From: Bacteroidia bacterium
GTDB lineage: Bacteria > Bacteroidota > Bacteroidia > Cytophagales > Cyclobacteriaceae
Direction of reading: 5' to 3'
NCBI GenBank assembly: GCA_030426345.1
Contig: JAUHYU010000001.1
Coordinates: forward strand, 1 to 64,000
DNA: 64,000 bases
The stretch's first letter is position 1; every line of letters starts with the position of its first letter. A program made the position numbers and the translations under genes. Below the pieces are notes generated by a model, which saw only the letters and a program-made list of their open reading frames with translations, had not been told where the DNA came from and made no database searches. Of this stretch, positions 3,831-63,648 are shown in pieces.

Positions 3831-6419
3831 CTATTCAGAAAACATAGAAGGTGGAGCAGCATCCGACAAGGTCCCCCAGTTCTTATTTGGTTCTGGGCCC
3901 ATGGTAAAAATCATGGTACCGCCTTTTACGATTTCGTCATGGGAAATCCATGTTTTATCATAAGGAACACCATTAAGCGTGGCGGATTGTATGTAAATAT
4001 TATCGGATGATATATTTTCTGCTTTGACAGTAAATTCTTTATCACCAAAATAATCATCCAATTTTAGCGTAACCTCCTCAAAAAGCGGAGTCCCTATCAC
4101 AAATACATTTTGTCCGGGAGCTACAGGATAAAATCCCAAAGCACTAAATATATACCAGGCCGACATTTGCCCCATATCGTCGTTGCCGCACAATCCATTT
4201 GGCCCAATGCCATACATTTTATTTCGAATTTCATTTACCCATTTTTGGGTTTTCCATGGCTCGCCAACATAATTATATAAATATGAGACATGATGAACGG
4301 GTTCATTTCCATGAACATACTGACCGATTTTGCTCCACATTGGAGCATATTGCAGATCCCCTGATTCGTATGGTGTCATGGTAAATAATGTATCCAGTTT
4401 ATGGATAAACGCCTCTTTTCCTCCCATCAAATTCACCAAACCCTGAACATCATGTGGCACGTACCACAGGTATTGCCAAGCATTGGATTCTGTGAAATGT
4501 CGATTGGGGCTCACTCCTACCCAAAGAGGATCGAAGCAGCTATAATATGGATGCACGTCTGTGCGCACTATTTCTGGATAATCCGTACACATTTCCAGCC
4601 AAGATCCATCCTCCATTCGCGGGCGCATAAAACCAGTTTGCTCATCATAAAGGTTCTGGTAATACAATGCCCTATTGCTGAAATATTCATGATCTTCCTC
4701 TTTGCCAAGAGCTTTGGCAATCTCCGCCAAGCACCAATCATCATAAGCATCTTCTAGGGTTACTGATACGGACTCCCTGATTTTCTCTGCAGGAATGTAT
4801 CCTAAATCCATATAATAATCCAGACCATATCGGCTTTTTGGTCGATCACCCGGCTCCATTGCATTTTTTCGCATGGCCTCATAAGCCTTTTCCACATCAA
4901 AATCCTTGAGGCCTTTCATATGCGAATCAACAATGACAGATGTGGCATGATCCCCAATCATCACGGCCTGATAGTGGTTTTTATAACTGACATGTAGCGG
5001 AAGTCTGCCTCCCTGATCATACATAGTCAGAAAGGTGCGGATCATTTCATTTTGCCTTTGAGGCTCTAAATATGCCAAAAGTGGATGCTGCGCTCGGTAA
5101 GTATCCCATAGAGAAAAATCGACATAATATCGTTCATTTGGTGATCCATGGATTTGATCGTCAAAATGACTGTAATACGATCCATCTACATCGGAGAATA
5201 CTCTGGGGAACATACTCGAATGATACATCGATGTATAGAATATAGTTTTCTGATCTTCAGTCCCACCTTTGACGTCAATCTTATTCAACTTTTCATTCCA
5301 AATATCCCTTGCATCTTGATGCACTTTTTCAAAATCCCAATGTGGCAATTCGGCCGCAATATTCTTTTTAGCTCCTTCGATGCTTACAAATGAAATTCCA
5401 ACTTTAAGCAATACTTGTTCCCCCTCCGAAGTAGCAAAATTCACAAATGCTCCTACCCCATCATCACCCGACATTTCCTTTCGACCTTCATAAATATCCT
5501 CTCCATTCCATGTGCCGACTGAAGTAAAAGGCTTATCAAATTCCGCATAAAAATAGCAAGTCAGTGGTAGGTCATACGAACCCTCCATATCGCCCGTCAC
5601 ATATCCTTCGATTTCATGGTCGTTCAATACTTTTACATGGGTATCCCGACCGGGAGTAAGCGAATGGGTCACATCCAAAATGATATGCGCATTGTCTGAT
5701 TTGGGGAAAGTATATCTGTGAAGACCCACGCGTTCTGTAGCCGTGAGCTCCGCTTTTATACCATAATCCTTCAACTGTACCGAGTAGTATCCGGGACTGG
5801 CTTCTTCTTCGTCATGGCTATAAGCTGATTCAAAACCTTTAAATGTATTTTCTGTATAGTAGCCATCTTCATCCATATTATATTCATCTATGATGATTAG
5901 CTTTTCTTCATTGATCATGGTTTTTTGATGCTTTTTTTGCTCTTCTACAGATAGTTGGCCCCATGCCGCTTTTTCCACACCCGTCATTTTATCCAATCGC
6001 TGTTGCATTCTTTTAGCGGCTTCTGCATTGAGTTCCTTTTGTACTGCAGGCATCAAATCCAAATCTCCAATGGTTGGCATGACCATTACATTGTTATAGT
6101 GTGTCTTGGTAAACGGCCCCGTACCGCTAAGATGCGTATGACTAAAACCCAATATGGTTTTCTGATCGTAACTATACGCCCTCACACCTTGATAGCCGTT
6201 GTCAGGGCTAAGCTGCACCATTCCAAATGGCAGGCAAGCTCCAGGAAATGTATGGCCTCCGGCTGCTGTGCCAATCATCGGATCGACATAATCCACAGGC
6301 TGCTTGAAATCGCTGGTAGTGCAGTTTATAAAAAGGAAGGAAAGTAAAAATGTCCATAAAAAAGACAGTGGCGTAATCATTCTAAAAATCCGGAATCTTC
6401 CGGTAAAAAATTGATTCAT
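3831..6419 (-). CDS. GH92 family alpha-1,2-mannosidase-like lipoprotein
   Basis: 862 aa. The N-terminus has a basic n-region, a hydrophobic stretch and a lipobox-like Cys at about residue 33, so it is probably an outer-membrane or periplasmic lipoprotein. GH92 landmarks are present: VDPMIGTAAGGHTFPGA near the start, ELTATERVGLHRYTFP, and the C-terminal GNDDMGQMSAWY segment. GH92 enzymes are calcium-dependent exo-alpha-mannosidases acting on N-glycan or yeast-type mannans. It is about 80-100 residues longer than most members because of a charged, probably helical insert at roughly residues 120-195, after VMPTIGDLD. It stands alone with no SusC/D pair nearby. Confidence 0.93.
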   Translation of the reverse strand: MNQFFTGRFRIFRMITPLSFLWTFLLSFLFINCTTSDFKQPVDYVDPMIGTAAGGHTFPGACLPFGMVQLSPDNGYQGVRAYSYDQKTILGFSHTHLSGTGPFTKTHYNNVMVMPTIGDLDLMPAVQKELNAEAAKRMQQRLDKMTGVEKAAWGQLSVEEQKKHQKTMINEEKLIIIDEYNMDEDGYYTENTFKGFESAYSHDEEEASPGYYSVQLKDYGIKAELTATERVGLHRYTFPKSDNAHIILDVTHSLTPGRDTHVKVLNDHEIEGYVTGDMEGSYDLPLTCYFYAEFDKPFTSVGTWNGEDIYEGRKEMSGDDGVGAFVNFATSEGEQVLLKVGISFVSIEGAKKNIAAELPHWDFEKVHQDARDIWNEKLNKIDVKGGTEDQKTIFYTSMYHSSMFPRVFSDVDGSYYSHFDDQIHGSPNERYYVDFSLWDTYRAQHPLLAYLEPQRQNEMIRTFLTMYDQGGRLPLHVSYKNHYQAVMIGDHATSVIVDSHMKGLKDFDVEKAYEAMRKNAMEPGDRPKSRYGLDYYMDLGYIPAEKIRESVSVTLEDAYDDWCLAEIAKALGKEEDHEYFSNRALYYQNLYDEQTGFMRPRMEDGSWLEMCTDYPEIVRTDVHPYYSCFDPLWVGVSPNRHFTESNAWQYLWYVPHDVQGLVNLMGGKEAFIHKLDTLFTMTPYESGDLQYAPMWSKIGQYVHGNEPVHHVSYLYNYVGEPWKTQKWVNEIRNKMYGIGPNGLCGNDDMGQMSAWYIFSALGFYPVAPGQNVFVIGTPLFEEVTLKLDDYFGDKEFTVKAENISSDNIYIQSATLNGVPYDKTWISHDEIVKGGTMIFTMGPEPNKNWGTLSDAAPPSMFSE

Positions 6420-10121: not shown

Positions 10122-10141
10122 CATGGAAAAACAAGGCTTTT
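10122..10141 (+). repeat. dispersed repeat copy, AAAA subtype consensus
   Basis: CATGGAAAAACAAGGCTTTT, identical to the copy at 14924. It lies 10 bp after the stop of the dehydrogenase gene and 52 bp beyond the stop of the convergent GDPD gene. Confidence 0.88.
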
Positions 10142-10192
10142 TAGCCTGTTTTAAAAGATATAATGGCAACAGGCATTAACAATTTTTTGGCT

Positions 10193-14923: not shown

Positions 14924-14943
14924 CATGGAAAAACAAGGCTTTT
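14924..14943 (+). repeat. dispersed repeat copy, AAAA subtype consensus
   Basis: CATGGAAAAACAAGGCTTTT followed by TAG, between convergent genes. Identical over 20 bases to the copy at 10122. Confidence 0.88.
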
Positions 14944-14994
14944 TAGTGGCTTCTCACGGCCATCAAGCTTAAGACCCATGGGCTTTGGAAGTGT

Positions 14995-17466: not shown

Positions 17467-17880
17467 TTATCTTTTACCAATTTTCAATTTGGAAATAAAA
17501 TTATTGATGGTACCAAGCAAAATGGCAGATGACATATTGCGCGCACCATAGGGATTTAGGGAATCCCGCCTTCGATTTCCCTCGGCATTAATCACTAATA
17601 AATTATCATTGGCTCTGAAATAAGAAATTGGCATAAAACCGGACGAGATAGTTTTGTTATCTTCAGTAAGTGCATAGGATTTATGAAGTTGTCCGGCTTC
17701 ATCAGAAACAGAAATTAATTCTGTTTGCTTTGGCCATGCCAACATTCGGTAGTCAATAATCCCAGATTGGATATTTGGGTATTCTGAAATAAATCTGGTT
17801 TGGGCTACCATAGTGATTTCACTTTGGGCAAATATTGCCCCTCCAGAAAACAATAAAAATATTAAGCATATACACTTCAT
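17467..17880 (-). CDS. small secreted protein of unknown function
   Basis: 137 aa with a clear signal peptide (MKCICLIFLLFSGGAIFAQ). The mature part has no family I recognise and ends in a basic tail (KLKIGKR). It is separated from the divergent gene at 18086 by a 205-bp region that contains a perfect 40-bp palindrome. Confidence 0.6.
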   Translation of the reverse strand: MKCICLIFLLFSGGAIFAQSEITMVAQTRFISEYPNIQSGIIDYRMLAWPKQTELISVSDEAGQLHKSYALTEDNKTISSGFMPISYFRANDNLLVINAEGNRRRDSLNPYGARNMSSAILLGTINNFISKLKIGKR

Positions 17881-17940
17881 ATCTTCCGATTCAGACCTTC
17901 AATATAAGAACAATGTAGGGGCCCAACAATATTCAGCCAA

Positions 17941-17980
17941 TAAAAAGCATCTAAAATCCATGGATTTTAGATGCTTTTTA
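17941..17980. repeat. perfect 40-bp palindrome made of two inverted dispersed-repeat copies
   Basis: Two 20-bp arms meet at CCATGG with no spacer and no mismatch. Each arm read outward is CATGGATTTTAGATGCTTTT, one change from the TTTT subtype consensus. The left copy is on the minus strand (17943-17962) and the right copy on the plus strand (17959-17978). It sits between divergent genes, so it is not a simple terminator at a shared 3' end. The 20-bp arms and missing loop predict cruciform or RNA hairpin formation. Confidence 0.95.
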
Positions 17981-18085
17981 TATCAAATTGTTTTGATTAT
18001 TTGTCTCACGATGATGCCTTCCATTTTTGAACCAGTGAAATTTTATATTTTTGTTTGTTTCTTCTAACACTTGAGAAAAGGGAAT

Positions 18086-18601
18086 ATGGAACTTAGAAAA
18101 GCACTTTTACGGGAGCATTCAAAAGCCAACACGGAATATCTAGTAGACAAAATCGGTACTGACCAGGAGGCATTTGACGAATTGATCATACTTTTTCTGG
18201 GAAATGAATATCGTGTAACCCAACGAGCAGCGTGGGTGGTAGGTAATTGTATCGAAGCCCACCCTTGGCTGGTAGAAAAGCATCTAAAATCCGTGATCGA
18301 AAACCTACAAAACCCGGTACATGATGCTGTAAAACGAAACGTTTTACGTGTATTGCAATATGTGGACATACCAGAAAATCTGTTGGGAATCACAACCGAA
18401 ATATGCTTTTCCTTGCTCAATTCAGCAAAATCGCCCATCGCCATCAAAGCACATGCCATGAGCGTGTTGTTTGATATTGTAAAAAAATACCCCGACTTAA
18501 AAGAGGAACTGAAAATCTCTATCGAAGACCAAATGCCCTTTGGGTCAGCTGGATTTGTCAGCAGAGGTAGGCGAATCCTAAAAGCATTGGAAAAGGTATA
18601 G
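18086..18601 (+). CDS. HEAT-like alpha-helical protein
   Basis: 171 aa from the ATG at 18086; a TTG 15 bp earlier is less likely. It is all-helical with HEAT/armadillo-like pairs (RVTQRAAWVVGNCIEAHPWL, NPVHDAVKRNVLRVLQYVDI). It has no signal peptide, so it is cytoplasmic. It probably mediates protein contacts; the partner is unknown. The codons for EKHLKSV (18275-18294) match an arm of the palindrome 300 bp upstream at 18 of 20 positions against the family consensus. The gene ends 5 bp before the stop of the convergent gene. Confidence 0.75.
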   Translation: MELRKALLREHSKANTEYLVDKIGTDQEAFDELIILFLGNEYRVTQRAAWVVGNCIEAHPWLVEKHLKSVIENLQNPVHDAVKRNVLRVLQYVDIPENLLGITTEICFSLLNSAKSPIAIKAHAMSVLFDIVKKYPDLKEELKISIEDQMPFGSAGFVSRGRRILKALEKV

Positions 18602-37608: not shown

Positions 37609-37628
37609 CATGGATTTTAGAGGCTTTT
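37609..37628 (+). repeat. dispersed repeat copy, exact TTTT consensus
   Basis: CATGGATTTTAGAGGCTTTT with three more T after it. It touches the 3' end of the gene that stops at 37634. Confidence 0.93.
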
Positions 37629-37633
37629 TTTGG

Positions 37634-41019: not shown

Positions 41020-41030
41020 ATTAGAACAAA

Positions 41031-41050
41031 AAAAGCCTCATAAATCCATG
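41031..41050 (-). repeat. dispersed repeat copy, reverse orientation
   Basis: On the minus strand it reads CATGGATTTATGAGGCTTTT, two changes from consensus. It lies between the Spy-like stop and a strong terminator hairpin. Confidence 0.82.
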
Positions 41051-44118: not shown

Positions 44119-45129
44119 ATGCACCTTTTCAATAATCTAAGTAAGCTAAAAACCACCACCGCTTTCAAAAAAAGGCATATCCTATGGGTTTTATGCCTTT
44201 TTTTGGCTTCATGCCAAAATGAAAAGAATGAAGTCTATACATTTAGCTTTGGTCACGTCTCTAATGAAGACCACACCTGGCATCAGGCAGCGTTGTATTT
44301 TGATCAAATACTGGATGAACGCACTGATGGAAAAGTAAGGGTCAATGTTTTCGCGGGAGAGCAGCTGGGCAAAGAAGTGGAGTTGATCCGCAGTATCAAA
44401 GCTGGGATTTCCGACATGACCATCACCGCCGGCACACTTCAAAACTGGAGTAAAGTAGCGGCATTTTCAGATATGCCTTTTCTGCTTAGGGATACTTTAC
44501 ATCTAAAAGCACTGGTAAATAGCGATATCGGAGCGTATATAGAAAAAGCCATTTTGCAAGATACAGGACTTCGGGTCATTTGCTATTTTCAGCGCGGCCC
44601 TCGGGAGCTAACCGCCAACAGGCCAATTAAAAACCCGGATGACTTAAATGGTTTGATTATCCGCATCCCAAATGTGCCATCATATGTCACGGCATGGCAG
44701 GCCCTCGGCGCCAAGCCCACTCCCATGGCTTTTTCAGAGGTTTTCACTGCGCTACAACAGGGAACAGTGGAAGCCCAAGAAAACCCATTGGCGATGATCA
44801 GTAGTGCCAATTTTGCAGAGGTACAAAAGTACCTGAACCTGACCAACCATGTGATCAGCTGGGGGTATGTGGTGATTGGTGAGCAACAATTTCAAGAACT
44901 TCCGGATGAGTACAAAGACATCTTTCTTGAAGCTGCCAGAGACATGCAGGTCTATGAACACCAACTATTCTTAGCTAAAGAAAAGACCCTTAGAAAAGAA
45001 CTCGAAGATAAGGGAATGCAATTTGTAGAAGTCGACAATCAAGCTTTTCAAAAAACCGGATCGGAGGCAGTTTACAACAGTCTGGATGAAGACATGAAGG
45101 ATTTATACCAAAAAATTAGTGCCCTTTAG
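44119..45129 (+). CDS. TRAP-transporter substrate-binding lipoprotein (DctP-type), orphan
   Basis: 336 aa. The signal ends in a lipobox (LFLASC). The fold shows TRAP DctP marks: FGHVSNEDHTWHQAALYF, GKVRVNVFAGEQLGKEVELI, the ligand Arg region RGPRELTANRPIKNPDDLNG and LRIRIPN-like strand. DctP proteins bind carboxylates or sugar acids in the periplasm and feed a DctQ/DctM membrane pair. Neither dctQ nor dctM follows; the next gene is unrelated. The membrane genes may lie elsewhere or have been lost. Confidence 0.9.
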   Translation: MHLFNNLSKLKTTTAFKKRHILWVLCLFLASCQNEKNEVYTFSFGHVSNEDHTWHQAALYFDQILDERTDGKVRVNVFAGEQLGKEVELIRSIKAGISDMTITAGTLQNWSKVAAFSDMPFLLRDTLHLKALVNSDIGAYIEKAILQDTGLRVICYFQRGPRELTANRPIKNPDDLNGLIIRIPNVPSYVTAWQALGAKPTPMAFSEVFTALQQGTVEAQENPLAMISSANFAEVQKYLNLTNHVISWGYVVIGEQQFQELPDEYKDIFLEAARDMQVYEHQLFLAKEKTLRKELEDKGMQFVEVDNQAFQKTGSEAVYNSLDEDMKDLYQKISAL

Positions 45130-45345: not shown

Positions 45346-45394
45346 AATTAATTGCAGCGGAATTTCCCTATCGGAAATTCCGCTGCAATTAATT
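45346..45394. repeat. 22-bp perfect inverted repeat with 5-nt loop
   Basis: The left arm 45346-45367 pairs fully with 45373-45394 around CTATC. The core GCAGCGGAATTTCC is moderately GC-rich. No T-run follows, and the distance from the DctP stop (217 bp) is long for a terminator. It may be a stable hairpin left by an insertion or a site for a protein dimer. Confidence 0.9.
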
Positions 45395-53323: not shown

Positions 53324-53408
53324 GCACCCGCTCTATGGGATTTAGCCCCATGAAAATTTGACACTTTTTCAAAAATATATTGCTGCGAAGAAGTGGACAA
53401 TTTGGATT

Positions 53409-53457
53409 CGGATTACAAATCCTATGATACCTATTCGACATTACAAATATCGAGTAG
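53409..53457 (+). repeat. 49-bp direct repeat, left of RAYT
   Basis: Matches 54072-54120 at 43 of 49 positions. Each copy holds two hairpins with an AYA loop: GGATT/AATCC and TTCGACATT/AATRTCGAR. Confidence 0.92.
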
Positions 53458-53523
53458 CCGATGATGCACACGCTCTTTGGGATTTGCAATCCCGAAGCTC
53501 TATCGTTGGATTTATAATCCAAA

Positions 53524-54054
53524 TCAACCAATTAGGCTAAGTTCCAAATGCCCCTTTCTTGTCCCATAAAAATCCCCTGCACTGCTCAACAGATATTCTT
53601 CTTCCTTTTCAACAATCCCTGCCTGAACCGGGTTTGCATGGATATACGCTACTTTGGATCTATAAAAATCTTCACTCCATATTTCTTCGCCATGATACCC
53701 CTCTTCCCAAAACCAGATTTTACCTTCATATTTCAACGCTTTCAACAGCCATGCTTTTCGGCTTTCCCGGTTATTTTCTTCAATGGCCTGGTAAATCGCT
53801 TTAGAGGTGAACTTTTTAAAATCCCGGATTATATCACTTAAATTATCGTTTTTAGCCCTTACTATCAAATGACAATGGTTGCTCATGATGACCCAAGCAA
53901 ATATTTCCAACCCCTTGCTTGCCTGATAATATTTCAAACTGTCCATTAGGATATCCACATATTCAGGGCGCGTGAATACATCTGCCCATTGATGGACCGT
54001 AAAAGTCACATAATGTGCAGCACCCTGATCCCTGACTACATAAGCAAAACCCAT
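53524..54054 (-). CDS. RAYT: REP-associated Y1 tyrosine transposase
   Basis: 176 aa. The HUH motif is H60-C61-H62 in VIMSNHCHLIV, and the nucleophile Tyr is about residue 137 in VAYIHANPVQAGIV. This is the single-Tyr transposase fold of the IS200/IS605 relatives called RAYTs. RAYTs nick short palindromic repeats and are thought to spread them, but are themselves seldom mobile. Here 49-bp direct repeats made of two hairpins lie on both sides, so they are the likely substrates. The reading frame is intact. Confidence 0.92.
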   Translation of the reverse strand: MGFAYVVRDQGAAHYVTFTVHQWADVFTRPEYVDILMDSLKYYQASKGLEIFAWVIMSNHCHLIVRAKNDNLSDIIRDFKKFTSKAIYQAIEENNRESRKAWLLKALKYEGKIWFWEEGYHGEEIWSEDFYRSKVAYIHANPVQAGIVEKEEEYLLSSAGDFYGTRKGHLELSLIG

Positions 54055-54071
54055 AGGTAAATATATTAATG

Positions 54072-54120
54072 CGGATTATAAATCCTATGATACGAATTCG
54101 ACATTATAAATGTCGAATAG
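54072..54120 (+). repeat. 49-bp direct repeat, right of RAYT
   Basis: Partner of 53409-53457. The hairpin at 54096-54118 has perfect 10-bp arms around ATA; the one at 54073-54085 has 5-bp arms around ATA. It lies 17 bp upstream of the RAYT start codon. Confidence 0.92.
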
Positions 54121-54146
54121 CAGAATAGCAGAAATAGCGGTTCCAA

Positions 54147-55940
54147 CTAAATCACTTGCTTCAAATACACATAATAAGCTCCGACTTCTACATCATTTTC
54201 GTCGATCAGCCAAGTTTTGATCTCCTGTTCGCCGGGTTCTAATTCTAGCTCAAAAACTGCATTTAGCGCATCTTTTGTGACTTCTTGACTTTGTTCCTGA
54301 TCACCAACTTTCAATTTGGCCGTCACCACATTGATCGGTATTCCCTCAGGGTATGGGTTTCCTCCGTCAATTTTATCTCCCAGAGGGACTACGGCTCTAA
54401 ATCCCGCCCTTGACTCCTCAGGATAGCGATGCAACGCGATGGAATATTTGCCCTCTTTTTGCACATCGATGATCCAAAATCCATTAGGATTTTTATTCAG
54501 CCGAACTTGCGTTTGGTTCCATGCAGGATATTTGCCATCGTCTGGATGGATGTCATGGCTTGTCAATCGTACCGTCTCCTGATTAAAACCAACCGGAATA
54601 GGGTTGATTTCATCTGATCGCTGCGAAACCCGCGTCCACCAAGTTTCATAATCTTGGCGCATGGCTTCAACTACTTCTGGAAAATCAATGGAAATATCCG
54701 TCGTTTGTCCAGGGTCTTTTTGTATATCGTAAAGCTCCTCTCCCCGGATCAACCGATACTGATCTGTCATAATAGAAGCAGCTTTCCATTTTTTCAGAAA
54801 TTCAAGACGCTGTGTATCGGTGATGATAGTTCTTGATTTCCATGGATTTTTGGGGCTTTTTAGCAGTGGAGCGAGGCTCTCTCCTTCAAAAGGCAATGAA
54901 GGCTTTTCATTGATTTTGCATAGATCTAAAAGCGTCGGAACCACGTCGGTGTAAGAAGTGATAAAATCAACATCCCGACCTCCTCCAATATTTCCTTCAG
55001 GCCAATAGATGAAAAATGGCACGCGATGTCCACCTTCATAAGGCGAACCTTTTTTGCCTCGCATGCCTGCGTTATATCCTTTTCCGGTAGGGAATCCATT
55101 TTTACCCAATTGAATCCCCGCAGCGGATCCATTATCTGTCATGAAAATCAAAATGGTATTTCTATCCAAATCCCATTCCGTGAGTTTCTTTCTCAATAAG
55201 CCAAGGTTTTCATCGGCATTGGTAATCATCCCATAAAAATTGGGGTTGGGAATTGAATCATTTGCACCATACATGTCTATGTATTTTTGTGGCACATGAA
55301 ACGGACCATGAGGCGCATTGGTGGCGATGTAGCAAAAAAATGGTGCTTCCTTTTTAGATTCGATAAAGTTCAAGGCCTCATCAAACCATATATCCGTACA
55401 ATATCCCTCAAATCTTTCCGGCACGCCATTTCTAAAATAGGTATCATCAAAATAGTCATTGTTCCAATAATCCGGCGTTTGACCAACTCCTCCGCCCCCA
55501 TGGATTACAGTAGTTTCAAAGCCGCGATCCTGTGGGCGATAAGGATAGTTGTCGCCCAAATGCCATTTTCCAAACATCCCGGTACTGTAGCCATTATTTT
55601 TCAACATGTCAGCAATGGTAGTTTCTCCCTGTCTCAAAAAATTACGACCTATGATCGTATGCCAAACGCCAACTTCATTGCAATTGCGTCCTGTCATCAG
55701 CCCGGATCGGGTCGGTGCACAAGTAGTTCCGACATGAAAATTCGTCAGCCTGATACTCTCCGAATGAAGCTTGTCCATCTCGGGGGTTTTGATCCATGGA
55801 TTTCCAAGGCATGCGACGTCGCCGTAGCCCTGATCATCCGTCATGATCAAAATGATATTGGGTTTTTGAGGCTCTTTCTTTTCTGTACAACTAAAAAGAA
55901 AAGAGGCAGTTACAGCAATTAAAATGCATTTAATTTCCAT
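54147..55940 (-). CDS. formylglycine-dependent sulfatase lipoprotein (S1 family)
   Basis: 597 aa. The lipoprotein signal ends LFSC. The metal site IILIMTDDQGYGD (about 29-41) precedes the FGly motif CAPTRSGLMTGR (about 75-86, Cys modified to formylglycine). GKWHLGD and HGPFHVP follow. The C-terminal 130 residues form an extra beta-sandwich (VRLNKNPNGFWIIDVQKEGK). It removes sulfate esters from a polysaccharide. Its start overlaps the hydrolase stop, so it is the last gene of a four-domain operon. A repeat copy (54841) lies in its codons. Confidence 0.94.
   Translation of the reverse strand: MEIKCILIAVTASFLFSCTEKKEPQKPNIILIMTDDQGYGDVACLGNPWIKTPEMDKLHSESIRLTNFHVGTTCAPTRSGLMTGRNCNEVGVWHTIIGRNFLRQGETTIADMLKNNGYSTGMFGKWHLGDNYPYRPQDRGFETTVIHGGGGVGQTPDYWNNDYFDDTYFRNGVPERFEGYCTDIWFDEALNFIESKKEAPFFCYIATNAPHGPFHVPQKYIDMYGANDSIPNPNFYGMITNADENLGLLRKKLTEWDLDRNTILIFMTDNGSAAGIQLGKNGFPTGKGYNAGMRGKKGSPYEGGHRVPFFIYWPEGNIGGGRDVDFITSYTDVVPTLLDLCKINEKPSLPFEGESLAPLLKSPKNPWKSRTIITDTQRLEFLKKWKAASIMTDQYRLIRGEELYDIQKDPGQTTDISIDFPEVVEAMRQDYETWWTRVSQRSDEINPIPVGFNQETVRLTSHDIHPDDGKYPAWNQTQVRLNKNPNGFWIIDVQKEGKYSIALHRYPEESRAGFRAVVPLGDKIDGGNPYPEGIPINVVTAKLKVGDQEQSQEVTKDALNAVFELELEPGEQEIKTWLIDENDVEVGAYYVYLKQVI
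54841..54860 (+). repeat. dispersed repeat copy inside the sulfatase gene
   Basis: CATGGATTTTTGGGGCTTTT, two changes from consensus. Read on the coding strand it encodes LLKSPKNPW, between the alkaline-phosphatase-like core and the C-terminal part. Confidence 0.75.
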
Positions 55941-60955: not shown

Positions 60956-62137
60956 ATGAAGAAATTTGCATTACTATTTTTTAGCCTTTCGATCTGTTAC
61001 TGTTTAAATGCACAACAATTCGATGATTCAAAAGTACCGGGGGTTGTTGTGACATATAGTCCCGCATCTTCGGGGAAATATATAGGCTCACCCAGTTTAG
61101 CCATTCTTCCAAATGGAGACTATGTGGCTTCTCATGATTTTTTTGGACCTGAATCCAATGAACATGTGAGAGCAACTTCTAAAATTTATACTTCTAAAAA
61201 TAAAGGTAAAACATGGAGCGAGATAGCTGAGATTGATGGGGCATTTTGGTCTAAGCTTTTCGTTAATCAAGGAAATCTTTGGTTTTTAGGTACTGACAGA
61301 CATCATGGGAATACACTTGTCAGGCTTTCAGAAGATGGAGGAAACACCTGGACCAACCCTATCAATGCGACAAATGGATTAATCTTAGAAGGGGAATATC
61401 ATTGCGCACCAATGGCTATTCTTACCTATAATGGTAGGATTTGGAGAGGTATGGAAAGTGCTATGGGACCAATTAAAAAGTGGGGTAAGCGCTATGGAGC
61501 GTTTATGCTTTCTGCTCCAATTGACGCGGACTTACTAAAAGCTGATAGTTGGACTAGCAGCAATATTCTTTACTATGATTCAACTTACCTTGATGGAAAT
61601 TTTGGCGGCTGGCTTGAAGGCAACGCAGTGGTAGATAAGAAGGGACAAATGTGGGATATCCTTAGAGTGGATGATCGCTCTACATTAGACGAAAAAGCAG
61701 CATTTGTTAAGATTAGTGCAGACGGTAAAAATGCTTCTTTTGATATCAAAACTGGCTTTAAGGATTTTCCGGGTGGCAGCAAAAAATTCATCATCAAATA
61801 CGATGAGCCTTCTGGACTGTATTGGACTTTAGCTAATGTAATCCCTGAAGAGATAAAAAAGGATAATGAAGGAACAAATCCTGCCAAGATCAGAAATACC
61901 CTAGCATTATTTTCTTCGCCAGATTTAGTGCAATGGGATCAAAGGAAAGTGATTTTACAGCATTCAGATGTTACCAAACATGGTTTTCAATATGTTGATT
62001 GGATGGTCAAAGGGAAGGATATCATATTTCTATCTAGGACGGCCTACGATGACGGTGTTGGCGGGGCTAACAATAATCATGATGCTAATTTCCTAACCTT
62101 TCATAAGATCAAGAAATTTAGAAAAACGCTAAAATAA
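60956..62137 (+). CDS. sialidase-like (BNR/Asp-box) secreted protein, tandem copy 1
   Basis: 393 aa with a signal peptide (to CLNAQ). Propeller blades carry Asp-boxes: SKNKGKTWSE and SEDGGNTWTNP. YIGSPSLAILPNGDYVASHD near residue 35-55 is like the Arg-triad blade of sialidase-fold enzymes, but a full catalytic Arg set cannot be confirmed by eye. Its target could be a sialic-acid-like or other exo-sugar. The gene downstream is a close copy (about nine residues in ten). Confidence 0.85.
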   Translation: MKKFALLFFSLSICYCLNAQQFDDSKVPGVVVTYSPASSGKYIGSPSLAILPNGDYVASHDFFGPESNEHVRATSKIYTSKNKGKTWSEIAEIDGAFWSKLFVNQGNLWFLGTDRHHGNTLVRLSEDGGNTWTNPINATNGLILEGEYHCAPMAILTYNGRIWRGMESAMGPIKKWGKRYGAFMLSAPIDADLLKADSWTSSNILYYDSTYLDGNFGGWLEGNAVVDKKGQMWDILRVDDRSTLDEKAAFVKISADGKNASFDIKTGFKDFPGGSKKFIIKYDEPSGLYWTLANVIPEEIKKDNEGTNPAKIRNTLALFSSPDLVQWDQRKVILQHSDVTKHGFQYVDWMVKGKDIIFLSRTAYDDGVGGANNNHDANFLTFHKIKKFRKTLK

Positions 62138-62204: not shown

Positions 62205-62224
62205 CATGGATTTTAGAGGCTTTT
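62205..62224 (+). repeat. dispersed repeat copy, exact TTTT consensus
   Basis: CATGGATTTTAGAGGCTTTT, 17 bp after the terminator T-run, between the tandem sialidase-like genes. Confidence 0.93.
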
Positions 62225-62298
62225 TAATACGCAAGCGATGGTTATCAAACCTAAAGTAGCCGTGATTTGATGCAATTAACCCACTAAAAAATTTACCA

Positions 62299-63483
62299 AT
62301 GAAGAAATTTACATTACTATTTTTTAGCCTTTCGATTTGTTATTGTTTGAATGCACAACAATTCGATGATTCAAAAGTCCCGGGGGTTGTTGTGGCATAT
62401 AGCCCCGCCTCGTCAGGAAAATACATAGGCTCACCCAGTTTAGCCATTCTTCCAAATGGAGACTATGTGGCTTCTCATGATTTTTTTGGACCTGAATCCA
62501 ATGAATATGTGAGCGCGATTTCTAAAATTTACACTTCAAAAAATAAAGGTAAAACATGGAGCGAGATAGCTGAGATTGATGGGGCATTTTGGTCTAAGCT
62601 TTTTGTCAATCAAGGAAAACTTTGGTTTTTAGGCACCGACAGACATAATGGAAATACGGTTATCAGGCTTTCAGAAGATGGAGGGAGCACCTGGACCAAC
62701 CCCAGCAACTCGGCAAACGGATTACTCTTAGAAGGAGAAGAATATCATTGTGCACCTACGGCAGTACTAACGTATAATGGTAGGATTTGGAGAGGTATGG
62801 AAAGTGCTCTGGGACCAATTAATAAGTGGGGTAAGCGCTTTGGAGCATTTATGCTTTCTGCCCCAATTGATGCGGACTTATTAAAAGCGGATAGTTGGAC
62901 TAGCAGCGACATACTCTACCATGATTCAACTTTACTTAATGGGAACTTTGGAGGTTGGGTTGAAGGTAACGCAGTAGTAGATAAGAAAGGGCAAATGTGG
63001 GACATTCTTAGAGTGCATGATCCCTCAACATTGGAGGAAAAAGCAGCATTTGTTAAGATTAGTGCTGATGGTAAAAATGCTTCTTTTGATCCCAAAACAG
63101 GCTTTAAGGATTTTCCGGGTGGCAGCAAAAAATTTACCATCCATTACGATGTGCCTTCCGGACTGTATTGGACTTTAACTAATGTAATCCCCGAAGAGGT
63201 AAAAAAGGATAATGAAGGAACAAATCCTGCCAAGATCAGAAATACCCTGGCATTATTTTCTTCTCCTGATCTAGTGCAATGGGATGAAAGAAAAGTGATT
63301 TTGCAACATCCAGATGTTGCAAAGCATGGTTTTCAATATGTTGATTGGATGGTAAAAGGAAAGGATATCATATTTCTATCTAGGACAGCCTACGATGATG
63401 GCGTCGGCGGAGCTAGGGATAATCACGATGCTAATTTCCTGACTTTTCATAAGATCAAGAAATTTAGAAAAACATTAAATTAA
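62299..63483 (+). CDS. sialidase-like (BNR/Asp-box) secreted protein, tandem copy 2
   Basis: 394 aa with the same signal peptide and motifs as copy 1 (SKNKGKTWSE, SEDGGSTWTNP). One codon is gained near LLEGEEYH. Changes cluster in a few stretches (NSANGLLLEG, RVHDPSTLEEK), while the presumed active-site blades are unchanged. Reading frame and terminator are intact, so both copies should be expressed as separate transcripts. Confidence 0.85.
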   Translation: MKKFTLLFFSLSICYCLNAQQFDDSKVPGVVVAYSPASSGKYIGSPSLAILPNGDYVASHDFFGPESNEYVSAISKIYTSKNKGKTWSEIAEIDGAFWSKLFVNQGKLWFLGTDRHNGNTVIRLSEDGGSTWTNPSNSANGLLLEGEEYHCAPTAVLTYNGRIWRGMESALGPINKWGKRFGAFMLSAPIDADLLKADSWTSSDILYHDSTLLNGNFGGWVEGNAVVDKKGQMWDILRVHDPSTLEEKAAFVKISADGKNASFDPKTGFKDFPGGSKKFTIHYDVPSGLYWTLTNVIPEEVKKDNEGTNPAKIRNTLALFSSPDLVQWDERKVILQHPDVAKHGFQYVDWMVKGKDIIFLSRTAYDDGVGGARDNHDANFLTFHKIKKFRKTLN

Positions 63484-63549: not shown

Positions 63550-63648
63550 CATGGATTTTAGAGGCTTTTTACCTATTTTTCTTCCAAAGGTCAATCGGTT
63601 AGACTAATGTCATTATACTTCCACGAAGAAAAGCCTCCAAAACCCATG
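63550..63648. repeat. paired-end repeat element, 99 bp, both ends well kept
   Basis: The left end 63550-63569 is the exact consensus. The right end 63629-63648 is inverted with two changes. Between them are 59 bp with no ORF. It looks like a REPIN-like or MITE-like unit. Confidence 0.85.

Follow-up and report, generated by a model that had tools for sequence, protein, structure and literature searches.

Two divergently transcribed genes in the window, by which we mean the whole 64-kb stretch of DNA analysed here, are separated by a perfect palindrome, raising the question of whether this sequence is an operator, an insertion, a terminator or an element of some other kind. The 40 bp from 17941 to 17980 are identical to their own reverse complement, as the original prediction had claimed, and one further pair in fact extends the palindrome to 42 bp (17940-17981) with 0 mismatches. 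Given its base composition, a 64-kb sequence should contain about 1e-7 perfect 40-bp palindromes by chance, and the second-longest perfect palindrome within the window measures 18 bp. The palindrome is composed of two head-to-head repeat copies with a common CCATGG, and each arm matches a dispersed repeat exactly, bearing out the earlier suggestion that the repeat unit can be a half-site (Table 1). When its RNA fold was compared with those of shuffled sequences, the palindrome gave a hairpin of about -22.6 kcal/mol (z -7.5), flanked on both strands by an A-tract on the 5' side and a U-tract on the 3' side. Searches of the 64-kb window returned no Rfam family and no tRNA gene.

The divergent location had been read correctly: the palindrome lies 60 bp from the start codon of the gene at 17467-17880 (-) and 105 bp from that of the gene at 18086-18601 (+), which encodes the protein P0001. 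Neither flanking protein belongs to a Pfam family; congeners encode an ortholog or a related protein for each. In the congener G003 the two genes are again adjacent, with an intergenic region of similar length from which the palindrome is absent, so that the window palindrome is probably young, in line with the recent origin proposed for it. Another gene is found directly upstream of the P0001 ortholog in G001, G002 and G005; the gene that occupies this position in several congeners is absent both here and in G003.

Table 1. Positions of the palindrome, its flanking genes and further copies of the repeat unit in the 64-kb window.
Feature	Position	Strand	Evidence
Perfect 42-bp palindrome, two half-sites sharing CCATGG	17940..17981	.	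self-complementarity and RNA fold
Left half-site CATGGATTTTAGATGCTTTTT, 0 mismatches to CATGGAWWWWNNNNGCTTTTT	17942..17962	-	
Right half-site CATGGATTTTAGATGCTTTTT, 0 mismatches	17959..17979	+	
Flanking gene, 137 aa, no Pfam family	17467..17880	-	G003 orthologous protein, 46% identity over residues 46-137
Flanking gene P0001, 171 aa, no Pfam family, in-gene copy inside	18086..18601	+	orthologs in 5/6 congeners
In-gene half-site in P0001, 2 mismatches, encodes part of EKHLKSV	18275..18295	-	gapless in all orthologs
In-gene half-site, 1 mismatch, antisense in gene 3831-6419	5916..5936	+	
In-gene half-site, 0 mismatches, antisense in gene 54147-55940	54841..54861	+	
Single intergenic half-site, A-tract CATGGAAAAACAAGGCTTTTT	10122..10142	+	
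Single intergenic half-site, 0 mismatches, A-tract form	14924..14944	+	
Single intergenic half-site, 0 mismatches, no hairpin	37609..37629	+	
Single half-site between convergent genes, 0 mismatches	41030..41050	-	
Single intergenic half-site, 0 mismatches, no hairpin	62205..62225	+	
Single intergenic half-site, 0 mismatches	63550..63570	+	

The repeat unit across the genome and the genus

The repeat unit is an asymmetric 21-bp word with the consensus YCATGGA-WWWW-NNNN-GC-TTTTT, which has the same profile in coding and intergenic copies and carries AT-tracts about 10-11 bp apart. Since a free-running weight matrix was drawn towards weak AT-rich matches, we counted copies using fixed patterns with controls. 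At up to 2 mismatches, CATGGATTTTAGAKGCTTTTT was found at 590 places in the 5.1-Mb genome (reversed-pattern control, 0), and the 20-mer CATGGAWWWWNNNNGCTTTT has 710 perfect copies genome-wide (control, 0). Within 464 kb of sampled sequence there are 237 sites at up to 2 mismatches, or about 0.5 per kb (one per 2 kb), from which we estimate roughly 2,400 sites in the genome, more than half of them inside genes. The spacing of sites in this sample is near random (CV 0.95), and the core is strict, with 65 perfect copies as against 2 that carry a single change in ATGG. Exact copies show no conservation of their flanks outside the 21-bp unit, save where a second arm is present. An unbiased scan of the 464 kb for gapped pairs of 5-letter words placed CATGG-n10-CTTTT at the top, with 141 occurrences against 5.1 expected, the other leading entries being mostly shifted or reverse-complement forms of the CATGGA motif. 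The two strands are used near-equally along five stretches of 60-124 kb, on which we found no replichore strand bias of the Chi or KOPS kind. The density of sites per kb is higher between genes than within them, by about 2.4-fold when up to 2 mismatches are allowed and about 8-fold when the limit is 1.

Other repeats were also noted in the window. The genes at 60956-62137 and 62299-63483 are tandem duplicates (86-93% DNA identity), and an exact copy of the word follows each of them. A gene for a RAYT-like Y1 transposase (53524-54054, -) is bordered by 56-nt repeats at 53406-53461 and 54069-54124 that are 86% identical to one another and unrelated to the CATGGA word, and which thus form a separate REP/RAYT unit. 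A 56-nt inverted repeat (47095-47150/52458-52513, 98% complementary) encloses 5.3 kb and may mark the ends of a mobile element, and a perfect 22-bp inverted repeat with a 5-nt spacer (45346-45394), about 220 bp downstream of a gene ending at 45129, belongs to a different hairpin family.

The copies within genes were compared with an expectation obtained by permuting synonymous codons within each gene. Across 329 confident genes, 19, 32 and 77 sites were identified at 0, 1 and 2 mismatches, as against 0.4, 3.8 and 15.6 expected; at up to 1 mismatch the total is 51 observed against about 4.5 expected. Because these sites lie in both sense and antisense orientation and in several reading frames, the signal in genes acts at the level of DNA. 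The genome of congener G006, processed in the same way as a negative control, has almost no sites. We then looked for insertions as gaps in ortholog alignments, following the approach of Redfield and colleagues on Haemophilus (PMC1626085). The sites in PurD, MnmE and P0001 aligned without gaps in all congeners found. When the comparison was widened to 18 alignments covering 12 sites, 15 contained no gap and the remaining 3 only gaps of 1 or 2 residues. None of these 18 alignments of 12 in-gene sites contained a block gap of 7 residues, the size of the motif; the in-gene copies thus arose by substitution, and the proposal that the palindrome might represent an insertion finds no counterpart in the way they align to their orthologs.

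Within the genus, the motif is all but limited to one species. In a sample of 394 other genomes from the phylum, the 20-mer CATGGAWWWWNNNNGCTTTT never exceeds two occurrences per genome, and its counts in congeners are 42 (G003), 32 (G002), 25 (G005), 5 (G006), 3 (G004) and 0 (G001). The few matches in G003 prefer a different base before GC and, with no more than 1 mismatch allowed, all lie between genes. Two congeners subjected to the same gapped-word scan yielded other, rarer and purely palindromic words. G003 and G006 have short inverted-repeat words of a different kind, CTGTGnnnCACAG and GCTCCnnnGGAGC, nearly all of them intergenic. Viral contigs gave no exact match to the word. A concatenated tree of four genes from seven congeners had several nodes with support too low to locate the gain or loss of the motif.

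Overlapping pairs as putative terminators

The word also forms pairs. We identified 111 overlapping head-to-head palindromes in this genome, compared with about 0.3 expected under independent placement, and a further 4 in congener G002, so that the full dimer noted in the window does recur elsewhere and the search for further dimers excludes the idea that no second one is to be found. A few tail-to-tail pairs of the word are also present (G000:C36:21116-21163; for example with 6-bp spacing), and are far rarer than the head-to-head overlap. Among 48 listed palindromes in which all fixed positions are matched, 39 are perfect over 36 bp, and 26 distinct sequences occur. At the two most variable positions of the N4 segment, the arms are complementary in 42 of 48 and 43 of 48 palindromes, whereas permutation gives 20.9 and 18.5 (maxima 31 and 29). 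In an unbiased sample, arm complementarity is bimodal, at 0-11 of 17 positions for single copies or 15-17 for pairs, and paired copies are therefore a class of their own as opposed to decaying remnants.

The palindromes form stable hairpins with a T-tract alongside on both strands, as expected for a bidirectional terminator, while the two single copies that we folded formed no hairpin better than shuffles (z 1.2 and 0). For 53 palindromes with clear context, where gene calls came from a simple script and many of the neighbourhoods sampled had been selected for containing a palindrome, 20 lie between convergent genes, which account for 10% of intergenic length (p about 1e-7), and 6 between divergent genes, which account for 29%, the window copy being among these few. 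When the flanking genes are co-directional, 25 of 27 palindromes are closer to the upstream stop codon, at a median of 31 bp. Genome-wide, then, palindromes are located at 3' ends, with the window copy as an exception, and their placement and predicted folds make them look like bidirectional intrinsic terminators. The view that the palindrome is not a terminator is not supported by its family, with 20/53 convergent and 6/53 divergent. The window copy itself, placed as it is between two start regions, cannot terminate either neighbouring gene.

Weighing the explanations

Sequence-specific DNA uptake is, in our assessment, the best explanation of the word, a view we hold with moderate confidence because its features match those of the uptake sequences of Pasteurellaceae and Neisseriaceae and because readings as a terminator alone, a mobile element or a regulator site do not account for the single sites. 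The last of these had been the original prediction, namely a dimeric protein bound at CCATGG, which fails for roughly 2,400 sites of which more than half are inside genes. The placement and dyad symmetry of the window palindrome would suit an operator at which a dimeric protein regulates the divergent gene pair, but the palindrome is not conserved at the G003 locus, its family sits mostly at 3' ends, and the sequence of the arms is free to vary while the arms pair, which is unexpected for an operator, leaving this explanation very improbable. The word could also be no more than ordinary intrinsic-terminator sequence, reused because it makes good bidirectional terminators, an idea that fits the hairpin with its A- and T-tracts, the position of the palindromes at 3' ends and the co-variation of their arms. 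It leaves unexplained the single sites that make up most copies, which have low arm complementarity and, in the two cases folded, no hairpin (z 1.2 and 0), along with the in-gene sites found on both strands at several times the expected number and the fixed CATGGA core, and we judge it improbable as a general account. For the single sites, a terminator-only reading is refuted by the lack of a hairpin, the low arm complementarity and the in-gene excess.

An origin as a mobile repeat of the REP or MITE type, dispersed by a Y1/RAYT enzyme or another transposase, would be in keeping with the copy number, the species restriction, the inverted pairs and the presence of Y1 transposases, one of them near copies of the word (C126). 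We nonetheless consider this origin quite improbable, given in-gene copies without block insertion in ortholog alignments, flanks that are not conserved outside 21 bp, a window RAYT gene bordered by its own different repeat, and viral contigs without a match. RAYT/Y1 transposase as the spreader was rejected, since the borders of the window RAYT are another repeat and the in-gene copies are not insertions. There is more to be said for a genome-wide site of an unknown chromosomal protein with a role in nucleoid organisation, segregation or occlusion, selected at thousands of positions, with head-to-head pairs reused as terminators: the strong core and phased AT-tracts resemble a protein-binding site, and spacing is near random (CV 0.95). 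Occlusion and segregation sites of known kinds occur in tens to hundreds of copies and are shared broadly across a lineage. Against such a site stand the lack of strand bias along contigs, the near restriction of the motif to one species of the genus and the fact that the word has altered conserved proteins locally, and we regard it as unlikely. Another DNA-binding process could also be what drives the word.

Under the uptake explanation, a receptor for DNA at the surface or in the periplasm would prefer DNA that carries the YCATGGA-W4-N4-GC-T5 word, and import followed by recombination would raise the frequency of the word through point substitution in coding and non-coding DNA. Head-to-head copies that overlap at CCATGG would form a hairpin made of A-tract, stem and T-tract, that is, a bidirectional intrinsic terminator, and such pairs would have been retained at gene ends. 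The window palindrome would be one of them, unusual in lying between divergent genes, where our guess is that it would at most block read-through in both directions. From what is directly observed, namely the abundance, species restriction and form of the word, its enrichment in genes without block insertion, and the geometry, arm co-variation and 3'-end placement of its pairs, we infer that the pairs terminate transcription and, more tentatively, that preferential DNA uptake may have caused the word to accumulate, as such uptake would cover the strict core, the AT-tracts, the substitution origin, the intergenic excess, the lack of orientation bias and the terminator pairs.

The machinery is one point at which the case differs from precedent. 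Uptake sequences are to our knowledge established only in Neisseriaceae and Pasteurellaceae, two families of Proteobacteria, and are read by minor pilins of the type IV pilus (ComP is known to do so, and ComN is predicted to). A search of the genus gave no PF00437 match over the cut-off for a type IV pilus or type II secretion ATPase, so that the receptor route of Neisseria and Haemophilus is missing. ComEC is present in all congeners and this genome encodes a protein with three HHH_3 stretches, but as neither tracks the motif they provide weak support. None of the congeners examined shows a clear uptake dialect of its own, which counts against the uptake reading. Members of the Bacteroidota can nevertheless undergo transformation. 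The combination of ComEC with no type IV pilus ATPase would be as in the pilus-free transformation of Riemerella, where a transposon screen for genes essential to transformation recovered ComEC, DprA, ComF and RecA, together with proteins that resemble no known machinery, with an HHH protein among the hits (PMC8459023). Riemerella columbina has been reported to favour its own DNA, and an analysis of its k-mers by the same authors established no clear word (PMC7965970). In the openly licensed literature that we searched, we found no paper tying uptake sequences to Bacteroidota, Bacteroidetes or Flavobacter, although an earlier report may exist; the sole Cytophagales match there concerns an earthworm symbiont of another group.

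We put forward, tentatively, that a lineage of Bacteroidota without type IV pili may have independently evolved an uptake-sequence system based on a 21-bp word, with a new mode of pairing, overlap at CCATGG, that makes bidirectional terminators. If so, a new class of sequence-specific DNA receptor would be implied, genome-wide self-recognition of DNA would have evolved again with other machinery in Bacteroidota that have no pilus ATPase, and the word would offer a direct handle on how pilus-free Bacteroidota select DNA for uptake. An otherwise puzzling perfect palindrome would also be explained.

Relation to known systems

Several known classes of sequence share part of this pattern. HIP1 of cyanobacteria is a very abundant short word found in coding and non-coding DNA of one lineage, with a function that is unsettled; the word described here is likewise abundant, short, both genic and intergenic and limited to one lineage, but is an asymmetric 21-bp sequence with AT-tracts where HIP1 is an 8-bp palindrome. 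REP/RAYT elements are also short dispersed sequences, present singly or as inverted pairs and enriched mostly between genes, and they differ from the word in that its in-gene copies show no block insertion and the window RAYT has distinct flanking repeats of its own. Bidirectional intrinsic terminators resemble the palindromes in having an A-tract, a paired stem, a short loop and a T-tract, and in lying just past stop codons and between convergent genes. Unlike ordinary terminators, the palindromes have a centre and flanks that are set by the repeat (TCCATGGA, with GC beside the T-tract), and they belong to a far larger set of single, non-hairpin copies.

The closest likeness is to uptake sequences; apart from machinery and dialects, the word behaves like a USS or DUS in all the sequence features tested, for which reason we class it as uptake-sequence-like and not as proven. 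Copy number, an origin by substitution in coding DNA, an excess in non-coding DNA, the lack of orientation bias, a strong core and inverted pairs tied to terminators by placement and hairpin are all found here, the type IV pilus machinery of known cases being the point on which it fails; the published features that it matches are those of PMC1626085, PMC3630211 and PMC1939737. Like the USS of Pasteurellaceae, the word has a high copy number in genic and intergenic DNA in both orientations, a strong core flanked on one side by two AT-rich segments spaced by roughly one helical turn, and an origin by substitution, not insertion (PMC1626085). It differs from the USS in its core, CATGGA as against AAGTGCGGT or ACAAGCGGT, in its phylum, in being less dense (about 0.5 per kb with up to 2 mismatches allowed) and in the lack of a detected type IV pilus ATPase. 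With the DUS of Neisseriaceae it shares thousands of copies, many inverted pairs tied to transcription terminators, and a sequence and presence that differ between species (PMC3630211). The DUS is without flanking AT-tracts, which the word possesses, and whereas the inverted pairs of DUS are mostly non-overlapping, with S. muelleri as the exception, the pairs described here overlap at CCATGG.
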